From NCBI GenBank assembly GCA_905479715.1, contig CAJQNR010000112.1:1-41591 (forward strand): a stretch of DNA of 41,591 bases, written 5' to 3'. This DNA comes from an uncultured Sphingorhabdus sp. (GTDB lineage Bacteria > Pseudomonadota > Alphaproteobacteria > Sphingomonadales > Sphingomonadaceae). Position 1 is the stretch's first letter. The number at the start of each line of letters is the position of its first letter. A program made the position numbers and the translations under genes. Shown in pieces: positions 32,709-41,591 of this stretch. The notes under the pieces were generated by a model. The model was not told the origin of the DNA, ran no database searches, and worked only from the letters and a program-made list of their open reading frames with translations.

Positions 32709-34912
<2,204 letters not shown>

Positions 34913-34917
34913 GATAT

Positions 34918-35850
34918 ATGGCCGGATCGACGCAAAAAACCATAGCCCTCACCGGCGCAACCGGTTTTGTCGGCAGCCGGATGCTCGATCTGGTCGTGCG
35001 GGCGGGATATCAGGTGCGTGCGCTGACCCGGCGCAAACAGGATGATCGGCCCAATGTGACGTGGGTGCGCGGTGCTCTGGATGATGCGGCCGGTCTCGCA
35101 AATCTGTGCAATGGCGCAGATGTGGTCGTGCACATTGCCGGGGTAGTCAATGCACCGGACACAGCCGGGTTTGAAGCCGGCAATGTCGCCGGTACGCTCG
35201 CTGTTGTCGAAGCGGCGAAACAGGCCGGGACGAGACGCTTTGTCCACGTCTCGTCGCTCGCAGCCACCCGACCGGAGCTGTCAATCTACGGCAAGACCAA
35301 GGCCAAAGCCGAAAAAATTGTCGCGACCAGCGGTCTCGACTGGACAGTCATCCGTCCGCCCGCCGTCTATGGCCCCGGCGATGGCGAGATGCTGGAACTC
35401 TTCAAAATGGCAAAACTGGGTTTTATCACCCTGCCCCCGGATGCCGATGGCCGTATGTCCGTCATCCACGTCGAGGATCTGTGTCAGGCACTGCTTGCGC
35501 TTTTGCAGGAACGGGAAGATTTTACCGCCGGGATATTCGAGGTCGACGACGGCAAGCCGGACGGCTGGACCCAGGCCAGTTTTGCAAAGGCTATCGGCTG
35601 GGCGATGGGCAAACGCATTACGCCCGTCGGCATGCCCAAATTGCTGCTGCGTCTCGGTGCCAGGGCTGACCGTCTGGTACGCCGCGGCAATGCAAAGCTG
35701 ACCGAAGACAGAGTCAATTATTTTTGCCATGACGACTGGACGATTGACCCGAACAAGCGTCTGCCGACACAATTTTGGCAACCGCAAATCGAAACCCGCA
35801 AAGGCCTGAAAGATACCGCACAATGGTATCGCCAGAATGACTGGCTGTAG
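34918..35850 (+). CDS. NAD-dependent epimerase/dehydratase family protein, probable CerR-like ceramide reductase
   Basis: Extended SDR of about 310 residues, NDUFA9/nucleoside-diphosphate-sugar-epimerase type. TGATGFVGSRMLDLVVRAGYQVRALTR binds the cofactor, and YGKTKAKAE carries the Tyr-Lys pair. ATG 34918 has AGGA four bases upstream; the ORF-track start at 34810 lies inside proB. In Caulobacter a protein of this kind next to spt and acp (CerR) reduces 3-oxo-ceramide in sphingolipid synthesis; I recall this from the literature. Here it sits two genes before acp-spt but immediately after proB (5-base gap), so it is probably co-transcribed with obgE-proB. The CerR role is inferred from context and fold. 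Confidence 0.75.
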   Translation: MAGSTQKTIALTGATGFVGSRMLDLVVRAGYQVRALTRRKQDDRPNVTWVRGALDDAAGLANLCNGADVVVHIAGVVNAPDTAGFEAGNVAGTLAVVEAAKQAGTRRFVHVSSLAATRPELSIYGKTKAKAEKIVATSGLDWTVIRPPAVYGPGDGEMLELFKMAKLGFITLPPDADGRMSVIHVEDLCQALLALLQEREDFTAGIFEVDDGKPDGWTQASFAKAIGWAMGKRITPVGMPKLLLRLGARADRLVRRGNAKLTEDRVNYFCHDDWTIDPNKRLPTQFWQPQIETRKGLKDTAQWYRQNDWL

Positions 35851-35856
35851 CGCCTC

Positions 35857-36375
35857 CTACATGATCGGCCCGGCGAACTGTTCATACACATAGGCGACGA
35901 AGGTCAGGGTCAAGCCGACCAGAAACACCCGATAGGCCCAGCCCAGGAAACGGTATTTTTTGCGTTCAAGAACCTGACCCATTTGATAGATGTCGCGAAG
36001 CATGGCGCGATAGGTTGATTCCTGGCTGCGCAATTCCTGGAGCAACAGACGGTCGATAAACTCGCCTTCACTGAGATCTGAAAAGCCACCGAAAAACAGC
36101 ATATTTGGCGAATGATCCTGCCAGGGGGTAACGGATGGCATCACCGCCAATGCGGACAGCCCGGCTGATAAAAACGCGGAGATAGCAAGGATAAGAAGCG
36201 GCAGGGACATGTTGCCCGCCTGGCTTTGACCAACAGCAAGCGTGAACACGACAAATGTTGCTCCAATCAGCATATTCGCCTTGTTATCAGCCATAACACT
36301 CAATTGCACATGATGGCGCTGCGTCGTGCCTAGCGCATAAACGACCTCATCTGGCCATTTGTTGGCATCATCCAT
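35857..36375 (-). CDS. Pycsar effector-family (PycTM, DUF5706-like) membrane protein
   Basis: A 172-residue protein whose core HVQLSVMADNKANMLIGATFVVFTLAVG is the DUF5706/PycTM signature (A-D-x-K-A-N-x-L-I). Helices are at about 35-50, 58-80 and 145-164. The middle NMLFFGGFSDLSEGEF and DIYQMGQVLERKKYRFLGWAY match the alphaproteobacterial effector type. In Pycsar defence such proteins are activated by cyclic UMP/CMP and damage the membrane. No pyrimidine cyclase gene is in the window, so this is an orphan. It lies convergent with the CerR-like gene (6-base gap) and divergent from acp, inside the sphingolipid locus. A non-defence role linked to membrane lipids is possible but inferred. Confidence 0.8.
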   Translation of the reverse strand: MDDANKWPDEVVYALGTTQRHHVQLSVMADNKANMLIGATFVVFTLAVGQSQAGNMSLPLLILAISAFLSAGLSALAVMPSVTPWQDHSPNMLFFGGFSDLSEGEFIDRLLLQELRSQESTYRAMLRDIYQMGQVLERKKYRFLGWAYRVFLVGLTLTFVAYVYEQFAGPIM

Positions 36376-36481
36376 ATATTACTCTCCGGAAGGTTGAAAC
36401 GCGATACGGCCAAAGAGTGGCAGAAAGCACGCCCACGGGCAAGACAAGGCGCGCATTATGCCGCTTTTGCGCCTTATTCGC

Positions 36482-36508
36482 TTGCCAATGGTGCGCATGT
36501 CTTGGCAA
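36482..36508. promoter_or_regulatory. Inverted repeat upstream of acp, possible operator
   Basis: TTGCCAA and TTGGCAA form a perfect 7-bp inverted repeat with centres 20 bases apart, in the 165-base gap between the PycTM gene and acp. It lies 32 bases before the acp start, with an AT-rich palindrome (AATAATTATT, 36520-36529) between the two. The spacing of two helical turns suits a dimeric regulator. The promoter itself is not clear. Confidence 0.4.
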
Positions 36509-36540
36509 AGGTCAGGAATAATAATTATTGGAAGCAATAT

Positions 36541-36786
36541 ATGGCAAATCGCGAAGACATCATGGCCAAGGTCAGCGGACTGATCGGGCCGTTCAACAAC
36601 AAGGGCGTCGCCTTGTCGGCAGACACGACCTTTCAGGGCGATCTCGAATGGGACAGCCTGACCGTCATGGACTTTGTCGCTGCTGTGGAAGATGAATTTG
36701 ATATCATCATCACCATGAACATGCAGGCCGAAATAGAAAGCGTCGGCCAACTCGCCGATGCCGTCGCCAAGTTGATGGAAAACTGA
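36541..36786 (+). CDS. Acyl carrier protein for sphingolipid synthesis
   Basis: An 81-residue ACP that presents an acyl chain, by context to serine palmitoyltransferase. The phosphopantetheine site is Ser39 in LEWDSLTVMDF, and the helix 3-4 region is FDIIITMNMQAEIESVGQLADAVAKLM. I chose ATG 36541 (GGAAG about 8 bases upstream); the ORF-track start at 36394 adds 49 implausible residues. It lies 91 bases before spt. In sphingomonads and Caulobacter a dedicated ACP is found beside SPT and is distinct from the fatty-acid-synthesis ACP. Confidence 0.93.
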   Translation: MANREDIMAKVSGLIGPFNNKGVALSADTTFQGDLEWDSLTVMDFVAAVEDEFDIIITMNMQAEIESVGQLADAVAKLMEN

Positions 36787-36877: not shown

Positions 36878-38077
36878 ATGACCGATTTATTGAGTAAATT
36901 CGACCCGCTGATCAAGGAGCGCGAGACGCTTCTGGCCACCGGCGTCAGGGACCCCTTCTCGCTGGTGATGGACGAAGTGCTCTCGCCAACCGTCGCGATC
37001 TGCGATGGCAAGGAAACCATCCTGCTTGGCACCTATAATTATATGGGCATGACCTTTGATGATGATGTGCGTGAAGCAGGCATCAAGGCGCTGGAAGAAT
37101 TTGGCTCCGGCACCACCGGTAGCCGGGTGCTCAACGGCACCTATGCAGGCCATCGCGATTGCGAAGAGGCTCTGAAAGAATTTTACGCAATGGACCATGC
37201 GATGGTCTTTTCCACCGGCTATCAGGCCAATCTCGGGATCATTTCCACGCTCGCAGGCAAAGGGGATTATGTGATCCTCGACATCGACAGCCATGCGTCC
37301 ATCTATGATGGTTGCGCGATGGGCAATGCCGAGATTGTCGCCTTCCGTCACAATGATATTGAAGCGCTGGAAAAACGGCTGAAACGCCTCCCTGCCGAAG
37401 CCGGGAAGCTGGTTGTCCTGGAAGGCGTCTATTCGATGCTCGGCGATGTCGCGCCGCTCAAGGAAATGGTCCGCATCTGCAAGGAAAACGGCGCGATGGT
37501 ACTGGTCGACGAAGCCCACTCGATGGGCTTTATCGGCGAAAATGGCCGCGGCGTCTGCGAAGCGCAGGGCGTGATCGACGATGTCGATTTCATCATCGGC
37601 ACGTTCAGCAAGAGCGTCGGCACGGTTGGCGGCTTCTGCGTGTCCAATCACCCGAAATTCGAAATATTGCGACTGGTTTGCCGCCCCTATGTGTTCACCG
37701 CCTCGCTTCCGCCGAGCGTCATGGCAACCGCCAGCACCTCGATCCGCAAGCTGATGCACAGCGGCAACAAGCGCGCACATCTCTGGGAAAATAGCAAGAA
37801 ACTGCACCAGGGCCTGCGCGACCTCGGCTTCACCCTCGGTACCCCCGAGGCGCAAAGCGCGATCATCGCAGTGATCATGCCCGACCTCGAGAAAGGCGCC
37901 ATGATGTGGCAGGCCTTGCTCGCCGAAGGGCTTTACGTGAATCTGGCACGGCCGCCAGCAACACCGGCCAATATGACCCTGCTCCGCTGTTCGCTCTGCG
38001 CGGAACATAGCAGCGAGCAGGTCGACCAGATTCTGGGCATGTTCGAAGCGGCCGGGAAAGCGGTCGGGGCAATTTGA
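36878..38077 (+). CDS. spt: Serine palmitoyltransferase
   Basis: PLP enzyme (399 residues, alpha-oxoamine synthase family) that condenses serine with an acyl thioester to 3-ketodihydrosphingosine, the committed step of sphingolipid synthesis. FGSGTTGSRVLNGTYAGHRDCEEALKEFY closely resembles the Sphingomonas paucimobilis enzyme. Lys245 in GTFSKSVGTVGG forms the PLP aldimine, DEAHSMGFIG supplies the Asp, and DSHASIYDG the stacking His. It is the soluble homodimeric bacterial type with no membrane segment. It is preceded by its ACP and a hairpin, and followed by an enoyl-CoA hydratase-like gene. Confidence 0.96.
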   Translation: MTDLLSKFDPLIKERETLLATGVRDPFSLVMDEVLSPTVAICDGKETILLGTYNYMGMTFDDDVREAGIKALEEFGSGTTGSRVLNGTYAGHRDCEEALKEFYAMDHAMVFSTGYQANLGIISTLAGKGDYVILDIDSHASIYDGCAMGNAEIVAFRHNDIEALEKRLKRLPAEAGKLVVLEGVYSMLGDVAPLKEMVRICKENGAMVLVDEAHSMGFIGENGRGVCEAQGVIDDVDFIIGTFSKSVGTVGGFCVSNHPKFEILRLVCRPYVFTASLPPSVMATASTSIRKLMHSGNKRAHLWENSKKLHQGLRDLGFTLGTPEAQSAIIAVIMPDLEKGAMMWQALLAEGLYVNLARPPATPANMTLLRCSLCAEHSSEQVDQILGMFEAAGKAVGAI

Positions 38078-38082
38078 CCAAA

Positions 38083-38877
38083 ATGACCAACTCCATCAAC
38101 ATCGAACAACGCGGCGCGATTGAAATATTGACGCTCAACCGCCCCGAAAAACTCAATACGATGAACGAGGATATGATCTTCGCGCTGCAGGATTATTTCC
38201 GCGGCCTCCAGAAGCGCCTCGATGTCCGCGTTGTCCTGTTCCGCGCAGAAGGCCGGGCCTTTTGCGCCGGCCTCGACATTGGCGGCTGGACAAATGACGG
38301 CTCGGCCGGGCCGGTACAGCATGTCTGGCGTACGCAGCGCTCGATCGCCACCGTGATGCAGCTGATGCGGCAATGCCCGCAGCCGATTATCGCGTTGGCG
38401 CAAGGTGCCGCCTGCGGTGGCGGCTTCTCGCTATTGCTCGCCAGCGACGTTCGCTTTGGTGTGCCGTCGCTCAAGATGAATGCGGCCTATATCAAGATCG
38501 GTCTCGGCGGCTGCGATATGGGATCAAGCTATTTCCTGCCGCGCATGGTTGGCGCGTCGATCGCGTCCGAACTCATCCTGACCGGTCGCTTCATCCATGC
38601 CGAACGGGCCGAAAAATACGGCCTGATCAGCGAAATGGTCGACGAGGACAAGCTGCTCCCGACCGGATTGTCGCTGGCCGAGGAAATGCTCGACACCGCG
38701 CCGATGGGTCTGCGCCTGTCGAAAGATGCGCTCAATCGCAATATTGACGCGCAAAGTTTCGAGGCTGCGCTGGCGATCGAAGACCGGCAGCAGGTGATGC
38801 TCTCAATGACCGAGGACAGCCGCGAGGCGGCCAAGGCGTTTTTTGCGAAGCGGAAGCCGGATTACAAGGATCGCTGA
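38083..38877 (+). CDS. Enoyl-CoA hydratase/isomerase (crotonase) family protein
   Basis: Crotonase-fold enzyme of about 264 residues. LTLNRPEKLNTMN, FRAEGRAFCAGLDIGG and ALAQGAACGGGFSLLLASDVRFG supply the CoA-binding and oxyanion-hole regions. GGCDMGSSYFLPRMVG replaces the segment that carries catalytic glutamates in classical hydratases (GA..E..LP), so the reaction is uncertain. It starts 5 bases after spt; TTG 38074 overlaps the spt stop and is an alternative start. Co-transcription with acp-spt suggests a role in acyl-chain processing for sphingolipids, but this is inference. Confidence 0.88.
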   Translation: MTNSINIEQRGAIEILTLNRPEKLNTMNEDMIFALQDYFRGLQKRLDVRVVLFRAEGRAFCAGLDIGGWTNDGSAGPVQHVWRTQRSIATVMQLMRQCPQPIIALAQGAACGGGFSLLLASDVRFGVPSLKMNAAYIKIGLGGCDMGSSYFLPRMVGASIASELILTGRFIHAERAEKYGLISEMVDEDKLLPTGLSLAEEMLDTAPMGLRLSKDALNRNIDAQSFEAALAIEDRQQVMLSMTEDSREAAKAFFAKRKPDYKDR

Positions 38878-39341: not shown

Positions 39342-40259
39342 TTATTTAATCGCGCCGCCCATAATCAAACGCGGCAACATGACCAACGCGCCCAGGATCG
39401 GCCAGTTCCTTTGCCATGGCTTAATCACATATTCAGTGCCGGCATGGCGGTTTATCTTCCAAGCGAGATAATCAATGCCGCCAGCGTAAGTGGCGGATGC
39501 CTTGGCCAGTCTCGCCAGCGTCAGCAGCTTGCCATTGCGCCGCAATTGCCGCCATCTTTTCTCGACCGTGTCGCGAGAGGTGATGATCTTTAGTTTCTTG
39601 CCCTGAGCCTTGTTCCGCTCCGCGATCGCCGCCAGGACGGCCGGTCCAAACCGGGCATAGCGCTCGGGATCCGCATCGACGACCGAATCGGAACGGTCCT
39701 TGCGCTCGGCGCGCAATTCTGCGCCATAGGTCAGTTCAAAACCGCGTTTCCAGAGATCCGCTATGCTGTATTCCTTGCCAATATCCATCATCGGGAAAGT
39801 CAGGTCGAACAGGGTTATCGCTGCGCCTTCAATCGCCTCAACGACTTGGGACTTGGCCTGTGCATCCGCATGCCAGACCAGCCGGGACGGTTGTGCAAAT
39901 CGCGCCCAGACGCTGACCGCGCTCGCGGTAATCCGGTTCAGCTTGTAAAAATCCTGCTCGCTCAACACCGCGACCTTGGCGACCAGCCCATCATGCTCTG
40001 CCGGGAACACATTGGGAGGCAGACGCTTGTTCGCAGCCACCAGCCAGCTCTTGCCATAGGCTGCTTCATAGCTCGACACGATCAGGTAGAAATCAAGCAT
40101 CTGCCCGTCGAGCTCGGTTGTCCGCAGGCAGGATCCATAGAAAAGGACAGAGCGCGACGCATCGCCATATTGCTCGGCAATCGAGGCCGCAAAAGCCGAG
40201 ACCCGCGAATCCACAGGCTGAGTCAGTTCTTCTGCAATCAAGGATTTGAGTTCGCTCAC
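39342..40259 (-). CDS. Tam41-like nucleotidyltransferase (CDP-lipid or CDP-metabolite synthase candidate)
   Basis: A 305-residue protein with a nucleotidyltransferase opening, LFYGSCLRTTELDGQMLDFYLIV: Gly42-Ser43 and Asp56 lie as in the GS...D motif of Tam41, the mitochondrial CDP-diacylglycerol synthase. Further downstream KVAVLSEQDFYKLNRITASAVSVWARFAQPSRLVW and KRGFELTYGAELRAERKDRSDSVVDADPERYARF resemble Tam41 segments of the same order. It is sandwiched between a DAG-kinase-like gene (15-base gap) and a cupin gene. In context it may make a CDP-activated intermediate for a sphingolipid head group; Caulobacter uses a cytidylyltransferase (CpgD) for ceramide diphosphoglycerate. The exact substrate is unknown. 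Confidence 0.65.
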   Translation of the reverse strand: MSELKSLIAEELTQPVDSRVSAFAASIAEQYGDASRSVLFYGSCLRTTELDGQMLDFYLIVSSYEAAYGKSWLVAANKRLPPNVFPAEHDGLVAKVAVLSEQDFYKLNRITASAVSVWARFAQPSRLVWHADAQAKSQVVEAIEGAAITLFDLTFPMMDIGKEYSIADLWKRGFELTYGAELRAERKDRSDSVVDADPERYARFGPAVLAAIAERNKAQGKKLKIITSRDTVEKRWRQLRRNGKLLTLARLAKASATYAGGIDYLAWKINRHAGTEYVIKPWQRNWPILGALVMLPRLIMGGAIK

Positions 40260-40274
40260 GCGAGCCGTCCTAGC

Positions 40275-41249
40275 TCAAGCGGCAAGCCGAAGGAAGGACA
40301 CTGGTTTGGTGGATTTCAGTACAATCGGATGCCCCGGCTGGGCGCTGAACAATTCACCGTCCATCAGCACATTGCTGCCGTCGCCCTCGATGCGGATCAT
40401 ATCGCCGCGTTCGAGATGAATGCCCTTCTGTACCGTTTTTCCCAACCGGCCAAAAATCACCGACAGCAGAAAGCGCATAATGGCCCCGGCTTGCTGATCG
40501 ATCGCCAGAAACTGCATCCGCCCGATTGCATTTTTATTCCGCATGGATCGCTTCATCAGCAAAAGTCGCTCCAGCGTGGTGACAATCAGTACCGCAAAAT
40601 TGCCCTGAAACTGGCCATCCCGGATCAGTGATATTTTGACCGGCGTCGACCGTTTGGGCAGGAATTTTGCCCGAATGCCGAACAGAACGGATGCAAGTGC
40701 GGCAAATACGGTCAGCACATGGGCCGCGGCGTTCGGCAGTCCGAGCGGATAAATCTTGTGACGGCAATAGAGGATGAACTCCGACAAGCCCGCCCCGCCG
40801 AGGAACATGCCCAGCACGACCTTGCTGTCCTTGCCGCCGTCGGAAAGCGCGATCAGTTCGCGGTCGACGAGATGTTCGTGCAAATCATGTTTGGCCAGTT
40901 CGACAATCCGTTCGAGCGCCTTGAGCGGATTGCCTTCGGATCCGAGATCGAGGGCAATCAAATTGGTCTTGCCATTGGGCAGAACTGCAACCGGAGGCGG
41001 GTTGTCCCCGAAATGGCCACCCTGGTATAATTCGGTCAACGCCGCCTGGACGGTCCCGTCACCGCCATTGATGACCAGCACTTTCGGTTTGACCCGTGCA
41101 ATCGTCTCCAGAGCCTTGGCAATTTCGTCGACATGATCGACTTCATAATGGAAGACATCACTGTTCTTCACGCAATAGGAACGGACATCCGGAAGAATCG
41201 CCCGGTTCCCCGTTGAATTGGGATTGGAAAGAAGTGCGACATTTGCCAT
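40275..41249 (-). CDS. Diacylglycerol/sphingosine-kinase-like lipid kinase, possible ceramide kinase
   Basis: A 324-residue lipid kinase of the DAGK catalytic family. NPNST near the N-terminus and NGGDGTVQAAL (61-71) are the ATP-binding motifs. The normally PxGTxND loop reads LPNGKTNLIA, lacking the usual Thr and Asp. The C-terminus holds IEGDGSNVLMDGELF, the family's DGE motif. In Caulobacter a DAGK-like protein in the sphingolipid locus (CpgB) phosphorylates ceramide; here the gene is next to a Tam41-like gene in a similar locus, so ceramide phosphorylation is the leading inference. It starts 33 bases after the DUF2141 gene. Confidence 0.85.
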   Translation of the reverse strand: MANVALLSNPNSTGNRAILPDVRSYCVKNSDVFHYEVDHVDEIAKALETIARVKPKVLVINGGDGTVQAALTELYQGGHFGDNPPPVAVLPNGKTNLIALDLGSEGNPLKALERIVELAKHDLHEHLVDRELIALSDGGKDSKVVLGMFLGGAGLSEFILYCRHKIYPLGLPNAAAHVLTVFAALASVLFGIRAKFLPKRSTPVKISLIRDGQFQGNFAVLIVTTLERLLLMKRSMRNKNAIGRMQFLAIDQQAGAIMRFLLSVIFGRLGKTVQKGIHLERGDMIRIEGDGSNVLMDGELFSAQPGHPIVLKSTKPVSFLRLAA

Positions 41250-41282: not shown

Positions 41283-41591
41283 TCATCTGTATTTCATGCT
41301 GATGTTGATCGATTTGACTTCATTGCCGACGTTGAAAGCCGTTTTCTTGTAACTCGGCTTGCCGAGATTGAAGATGTTGATGCTTGGATTGTTCGACATA
41401 CCGCCGCCATCGCTGGTGATATCGGTTTTGCCGTTACCATTGAGATCGTGGCGAACCGCAATCGCATATTCGCCGGCCTGACTGAACGGCAGGCAGAAGG
41501 TCATGTTTTTCGCGCTGACCGGCACTTCGATACGGCTCAGCCATGCACCACTCTTGAGCCATTCGTCCTTGGTGCCGCGATAGCTTTGGAC
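41283..41591 (-). CDS. DUF2141 domain-containing protein (partial, N-terminus beyond the window)
   Basis: The reading frame is open to the window edge, so the N-terminus is missing. The visible 102 residues (SYRGTKDEWLKSGAWLSRIEVPVSAKNMTF...) include the DUF2141 signature AIAVRHDLNGNGKTDI followed by GGGMSNNPSI and KSINISMKYR at the end. DUF2141 proteins are small secreted or periplasmic proteins of unknown function. It is transcribed into the lipid kinase, Tam41-like and cupin genes on the same strand. The ORF-track start at 41525 (GTG) is internal. Confidence 0.8.
   Translation of the reverse strand, partial: VQSYRGTKDEWLKSGAWLSRIEVPVSAKNMTFCLPFSQAGEYAIAVRHDLNGNGKTDITSDGGGMSNNPSINIFNLGKPSYKKTAFNVGNEVKSINISMKYR

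Follow-up and report, generated by a model that had tools for sequence, protein, structure and literature searches.

The window, by which we mean the whole stretch of 41,591 nucleotides analyzed here, carries near its end a pair of genes on the reverse strand. The downstream gene of the pair (39342-40259) encodes a 305-residue Tam41-like nucleotidyltransferase of probable CpgC type (here, NT), identified from its open reading frame, from a family of 62 aligned members, and from an AlphaFold (AF2) model. The gene starts with GTG, about 10 bases downstream of an AGGA sequence. The protein consists of a nucleotidyltransferase domain (approximately residues 30 to 135), a helical middle part (residues 136 to 218), and a basic C-terminal part (residues 229 to 305; computed net charge, +11). 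The upstream gene (40275-41249) encodes a DAGK_cat lipid kinase of the CpgB (ceramide kinase) type, 324 residues long (PF00781, 53.7 bits; cutoff, 23.6), with GGDG at residues 62 to 65; it lacks the CxxxCxxC that eukaryotic ceramide kinases have. The initial annotation had placed NT 15 bases after a DAGK-like gene, and both the gap and the kinase assignment are confirmed. Next to the kinase, a reverse-strand gene for a DUF2141 protein (41283-41591; PF09912, 65.2 bits) is truncated by the end of the window; judging by gene order in relatives, such a gene usually lies upstream of the pair in Sphingomonadales, ahead of LptF2/LptG2.

On the forward strand, and convergent with NT, lies a gene encoding a serine palmitoyltransferase (Spt) of 399 residues (36878-38077; NF047603, 796.8 bits; cutoff, 670). 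It is preceded by an AcpR-type acyl carrier protein of the ceramide operon (36394-36786, forward strand), assigned by PF00550 (36.4 bits) and by its position beside Spt, the true start of which is probably internal to the open reading frame, and by a CerR-type NAD-dependent epimerase/dehydratase (34810-35850, forward strand; PF01370, 94.9 bits), which is also present in the Spt clusters of relatives. The kinase-NT pair thus belongs to a locus for ceramide synthesis in a Sphingomonadaceae bacterium. As the closest named relatives, we found an uncultured Sphingomonadaceae genome and Parasphingorhabdus flavimaris (88% identical). Two further genes keep their places in relatives. A Pycsar-effector-type membrane protein (35857-36375, reverse strand; PF18967, 84 bits) is retained between CerR and the acyl carrier protein, and an enoyl-CoA hydratase-like gene (38074-38877, forward strand), sharing 4 bases with the end of spt, is likewise conserved at this position in close relatives and possibly contributes to the sphingoid base's acyl chain.

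The same genome contains, at positions 1 to 803 of another contig (C179; locus L127), the C-terminal 68 residues of a second, different NT of the Erythrobacteraceae type. This fragment is convergent with a second copy of the DUF2141 gene, which is followed by LptG2/LptF2, a desaturase, and CerS clearly of the window's genus. Either the assembly mixes strains or the genome has a second kinase-NT pair; two NTs in one genome were not found in any other searched member of the genus.

NT homologs were collected from 117 loci, some of which hold the same gene twice, and 62 diverse ones were aligned (alignment A1). Seventeen residues are invariant in the 62 members (Y41, G42, S43, D56, P82, K95, R120, Q123, P124, E181, R183, E185, L251, K253, T257, Y264, and K268). 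Among them are Y41, G42, S43, and D56 of the opening segment, YGSCLRTTELDGQMLDF (residues 41 to 57), which the initial annotation had recognized as a "GS...D" opening common to NT and Tam41. The window NT has no match in Pfam or NCBIfam, and the Tam41 model, PF09139, has none in the whole genome of the window or in the Caulobacter control genome. A Tam41 relationship is nonetheless detectable by this model in one relative: L074, which is 30% identical to the window NT and lies beside spt, scores 29.0 bits against a cutoff of 24 and is the sole member of the 62 to pass, while L075 falls narrowly below (23.2 bits). An HMM search with the Tam41 family, as envisaged in the initial annotation, thus fails for the window protein itself and succeeds for its relative. 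In a PF09139 search of 289 alphaproteobacteria, the fast first pass of which also missed L074, no classical Tam41 was found, and the sole match was a member of the NT family.

Profile comparison connects the two families more directly. Aligned by hhalign with three Tam41 sequences, the NT profile scored 57.7 (E value, 1e-7; 191 columns), against a maximum of 21.2 for 100 column-shuffled profiles (mean, 13.5; standard deviation, 2.5), 8.5 for the reversed profile, and 12.4 for the kinase family. The Tam41 set used here is small, comprising two chains from PDB alignments and a human sequence, the correctness of which is backed by a match (1e-55) with a Tam41 chain. In this alignment, Y41, G42, S43, D56, K95, R120, P124, and R183 of NT match identical residues in each of the three Tam41s, and E181 is conservatively aligned with Asp, so that the several later segments that the initial annotation had described as common to NT and Tam41 hold as well. 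Searching PDB sequences directly with the window NT, the NT profile, and L074 returned no Tam41; homology therefore rests on the profile-profile comparison, Pfam, and the fold, and for the window NT, which lacks a Pfam match, the link runs through relatives (L074) and the fold.

The AF2 model of the window NT (mean pLDDT, 92.4) has Tam41 structures, including 6ig4, 7ecd, and 6ig2, as all five of its best PDB matches (E values, 2.7e-7 to 4.9e-6; TM scores, 0.47 to 0.58); for 6ig4 and 7ecd, the E value is 3e-7 and the probability is 1.00, with TM scores of 0.49 to 0.58 over about 280 columns. The predicted structure agrees with the Tam41 likeness proposed at the outset, with Tam41 crystal structures as the top match and with both a palm-type nucleotidyltransferase fold and the active-site Asp present. 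At the D-x-D site, NT has a single acid (D56-F-Y; D-F-I in Tam41), which agrees with a review of the fold (PMC11646218), where Tam41 is said to retain only one of the three usual acids. Within the NT family, the C-terminal 75 residues are highly conserved; they show no alignment with the available Tam41 stretches. Given a sequence identity of only 12 to 18% and a TM score of about 0.55, the substrate of NT could differ from that of Tam41. NT is a conserved proteobacterial family, a remote and distinct branch related to Tam41 and not a member of it by Pfam's test.

Our analysis shows that NT is tightly linked to the kinase and to sphingolipid genes. Kinase and NT are on the same strand in all 111 loci compared and no more than 120 bases apart in 110 of them (duplicate genes counted), and the Spt cluster adjoins the pair in most loci. 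A search of 190 alphaproteobacterial genomes found Spt in 25 (at least 430 bits; the next score, 263, belongs to a group taken to be other members of the enzyme superfamily). NT is present in 21 of the 190 genomes, all of which are among the 25 with Spt (hypergeometric P of about 3e-24, a statistic that ignores relatedness). In the full cluster L096, acyl-ACP synthetase-like (aas), CerR, and Spt genes are followed by convergent genes for NT, the kinase, and a CDP-alcohol phosphotransferase, and then by genes for a metallophosphoesterase, CpgD-like and 1153-like nucleotidyltransferases, a CerS-like protein, and a fatty acid hydroxylase. Near-complete clusters are carried by plasmids of Pseudomonas sp. 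JS425 (pPNP1; L156) and Roseomonas mucosa (p1; L158), where NT is annotated as "hypothetical protein," and the Diaphorobacter plasmid pDCB2 (L157) carries the modification half of a cluster.

The next structural family after Tam41 comprises the aminoglycoside (antibiotic) nucleotidyltransferases (TM score of about 0.30), which would suit an enzyme that nucleotidylates a protein or a non-lipid small molecule, its linkage to the kinase being regulatory or accidental. In many genera, and on plasmids, NT is tightly linked to sphingolipid genes and co-occurs with them, which, together with the lipid phenotype of the Caulobacter counterpart mutant (see below), makes this reading highly improbable. 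It is also quite unlikely that NT is a second CDP-diacylglycerol (CDP-DAG) synthase, with true Tam41 activity, for phospholipid synthesis. Homology to Tam41 favors such a role, and bacterial Tam41 is able to produce CDP-DAG (work cited in PMC11646218), but a housekeeping CDP-DAG synthase, CdsA, is already encoded in the genome (192 bits), the distribution of NT tracks Spt and not phospholipid genes, and the loss of the Caulobacter counterpart, CC_1161, abolishes ceramide phosphoglycerate (CPG), which the gene in trans restores (PMC11324152).

The plasmid clusters have features of their own. Those of L156, L157, and L158 include dedicated LptF/LptG copies; pDCB2 is a conjugative IncP plasmid, and mercury or sulfonamide resistance genes lie nearby on two of the three plasmids. 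Anionic sphingolipid synthesis thus looks horizontally movable. A HIT-family (nucleotide hydrolase/transferase) protein encoded beside LptF/LptG in two of them (L157, 9378-9821; L158, 9963-10430) could act on a CDP-lipid or on CDP-glycerate.

The corresponding Caulobacter cluster was published as CC_1152-CC_1168 (PMC11324152). In the full clusters (L096, L156, and L158), its enzyme genes are matched by other genes, an elimination that leaves NT at the place of CC_1161, and CC_1161 is reported to carry an InterPro CDP-DAG synthase domain (PMC11324152). On the basis of gene order and this published annotation, the NT gene is probably the counterpart of CpgC (CC_1161) in a Sphingomonadaceae bacterium. 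CpgC is needed for the conversion of ceramide-1-phosphate to CPG, by a mechanism called "unidentified" in reports of 2025 and 2026 (PMC12275187, PMC13228409). As its product, an NDP-activated ceramide was proposed in one paragraph by Olea-Ozuna et al. in 2024, the base not being chosen (PMC11324152); the term "CDP-ceramide" was not found in the 5.39 million papers searched. The initial annotation, which regarded a CDP-ceramide route as new, therefore overstated its novelty: neither the kind of gene nor the idea of an NDP-ceramide route is new (PMC11324152). What our computation adds is the evidence from the Tam41 fold and motifs, the strict co-occurrence with Spt, and a kinase-NT module without CpgA and CpgD.

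This module emerges from a comparison within the window's genus. A CpgA-like protein is encoded in 14 of the 33 genomes searched, 13 of which also have a clear CpgD-like protein. In the remaining 19, among them the window's own genome and 12 near-complete ones, CpgA and CpgD find only paralog-level matches, yet NT is kept, and the kinase is beside NT in the 30 genus loci examined. Because NT is kept in the 19 genomes without CpgA and CpgD, it works upstream of, and independently of, both; together with the kinase it thus forms a module that stands on its own, ahead of CpgA/CpgD. A CC_1153-like nucleotidyltransferase (G000:C181:15266-16030) is kept in the genus even where CpgA and CpgD have been lost, and it may therefore act in the mono-phospho branch and not in CPG2 synthesis only; it may also be part of the remaining pathway.

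Several lines of published evidence bear on which molecule NT would activate. CPG contains one phosphorus (C37H72O9NP), and its formation requires the ceramide kinase (PMC11324152), CpgB having been shown to be that kinase in earlier work, and in Caulobacter the CDP-glycerate made by CpgD is not required for CPG. The simplest reading is therefore that CPG keeps the phosphate that the kinase places on ceramide. For this phosphate to be joined to a hydroxyl of glycerate, activation is needed, which a Tam41-type CTP enzyme would provide. The initial annotation had offered, as an alternative, that the enzyme activates the head group, as CpgD does: NT would use CTP and phosphoglycerate, or a similar small phosphate, and the CDP-head-group would be passed to the lipid. 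Such CTP-dependent activation does exist in the CPG pathway (CpgD; PMC12275187), and enzymes of the nucleotidyltransferase fold take many acceptors. CpgD, however, has an unrelated fold (COG1213 type) and its own gene in the full clusters, a CDP-glycerate donor would either give a two-phosphate product from ceramide-1-phosphate or make the kinase unnecessary, and Tam41, the nearest fold neighbor, acts on a lipid phosphate. We therefore hold head-group activation to be improbable; the evidence points to the lipid phosphate as what is activated.

We infer that the kinase would phosphorylate ceramide to ceramide-1-phosphate and that NT, as a peripheral membrane protein, would transfer CMP from CTP to it, giving CDP-ceramide and pyrophosphate, in parallel with the conversion of phosphatidic acid to CDP-DAG by Tam41. 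A CDP-alcohol phosphotransferase, possibly a housekeeping one, would then replace the CMP of CDP-ceramide with a head-group hydroxyl, e.g., that of glycerate, and the final lipid of the organism would be a ceramide phospho-head-group lipid (CPG in Caulobacter). NT is thus probably a CTP:ceramide-1-phosphate cytidylyltransferase. The two-step path of the initial annotation stands as regards the Tam41-like fold, the operon with a ceramide-kinase-type kinase, and the logic of a kinase followed by CTP-dependent activation, whereas the formation of CDP-ceramide itself is our reading of these data. In a different chemistry, NT might place UMP, AMP, or GMP on ceramide-1-phosphate or transfer the latter in another way, e.g., by direct condensation with glycerate via a transient enzyme-bound nucleotide. 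The proposal of NDP-ceramide with no base chosen (PMC11324152) accommodates the former. Against both possibilities, CTP is the nucleotide used by Tam41, which has the closest fold and makes only a liponucleotide. A direct reaction would explain why no separate glycerate transferase was found; to our knowledge, glycerate addition by nucleotidyltransferase-fold enzymes has not been described. We judge this group of reactions to be unlikely.

For the transferase that would use CDP-ceramide, the candidates are PgsA, PssA, or an unrecognized enzyme. The genome's third PF01066 protein, a CDP-alcohol phosphotransferase of 200 residues (contig C122), was rejected because it does not track NT: it is common where Spt and NT are missing, and only about 7 of the 21 genomes with NT give a strong match. 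CpgA is ruled out as the partner in the window's subgroup, where it is absent.

By placing CpgC as a Tam41-type enzyme, our analysis supplies a precise reaction to test for the CpgC step, and an NT acting as the ceramide-phosphate activator would fill a known gap in bacterial anionic sphingolipid synthesis. The dedicated Tam41-type branch and the genomes with the kinase-NT pair but without CpgA and CpgD add evidence for the NDP-ceramide route. On balance, we lean toward the view that CDP-ceramide is the activated intermediate for phosphosphingolipids in Proteobacteria, made by a dedicated, Tam41-related sphingolipid branch in a CDP-DAG-like pathway on ceramide. If so, bacteria activate ceramide as cells activate diacylglycerol, routes open to many head groups of phosphosphingolipids, which can partly replace lipopolysaccharide, and the range of the Tam41 family, whose known role is in cardiolipin synthesis, extends to sphingolipids.

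Among known systems, the kinase resembles Caulobacter CpgB (CCNA_01218), a DAGK_cat ceramide kinase that likewise has GGDG and lacks CxxxCxxC (PMC10331486) and whose counterparts are paired with NT; compared with its counterpart in a full cluster, the window kinase shows about 27% identity, and a CpgB-type activity is predicted. CpgD (CCNA_01210), a CTP:phosphoglycerate cytidylyltransferase, has in common with the reaction proposed for NT the use of CTP and a place in the Caulobacter CPG pathway, but it is a separate gene product with a MobA/COG1213-type fold and is needed for CPG2, not CPG. Pfam and NCBIfam searches of the window NT gave no match to a MobA/COG1213-type domain, which in full clusters resides on a separate gene, and no CpgD-like ortholog was found in the subgroup of the window's genome. 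The window copy shares with CpgC (CC_1161/CCNA_01219) its location beside a ceramide kinase gene and spt, and the published annotation of CpgC is CDP-DAG synthase-like; it differs in being convergent with spt and in belonging to a subgroup without cpgA and cpgD. With Tam41/Mmp37 (PF09139; PDB 6ig4, 6ig2, and 7ecd), the mitochondrial and bacterial CDP-DAG synthase, NT has in common the fold, the YGS...(L/I)DF opening with its single acid, and the K-Y, R-F-x-x-P, and Y-x-x-[DE]-x-R motifs in the same order. It differs from Tam41 in the low identity given above, which leaves the window NT below Pfam detection, in a conserved C-terminal block of its own (GK...RL.K...T..GG.DY..WK..RH), and in a gene context that is sphingolipid, not phospholipid.
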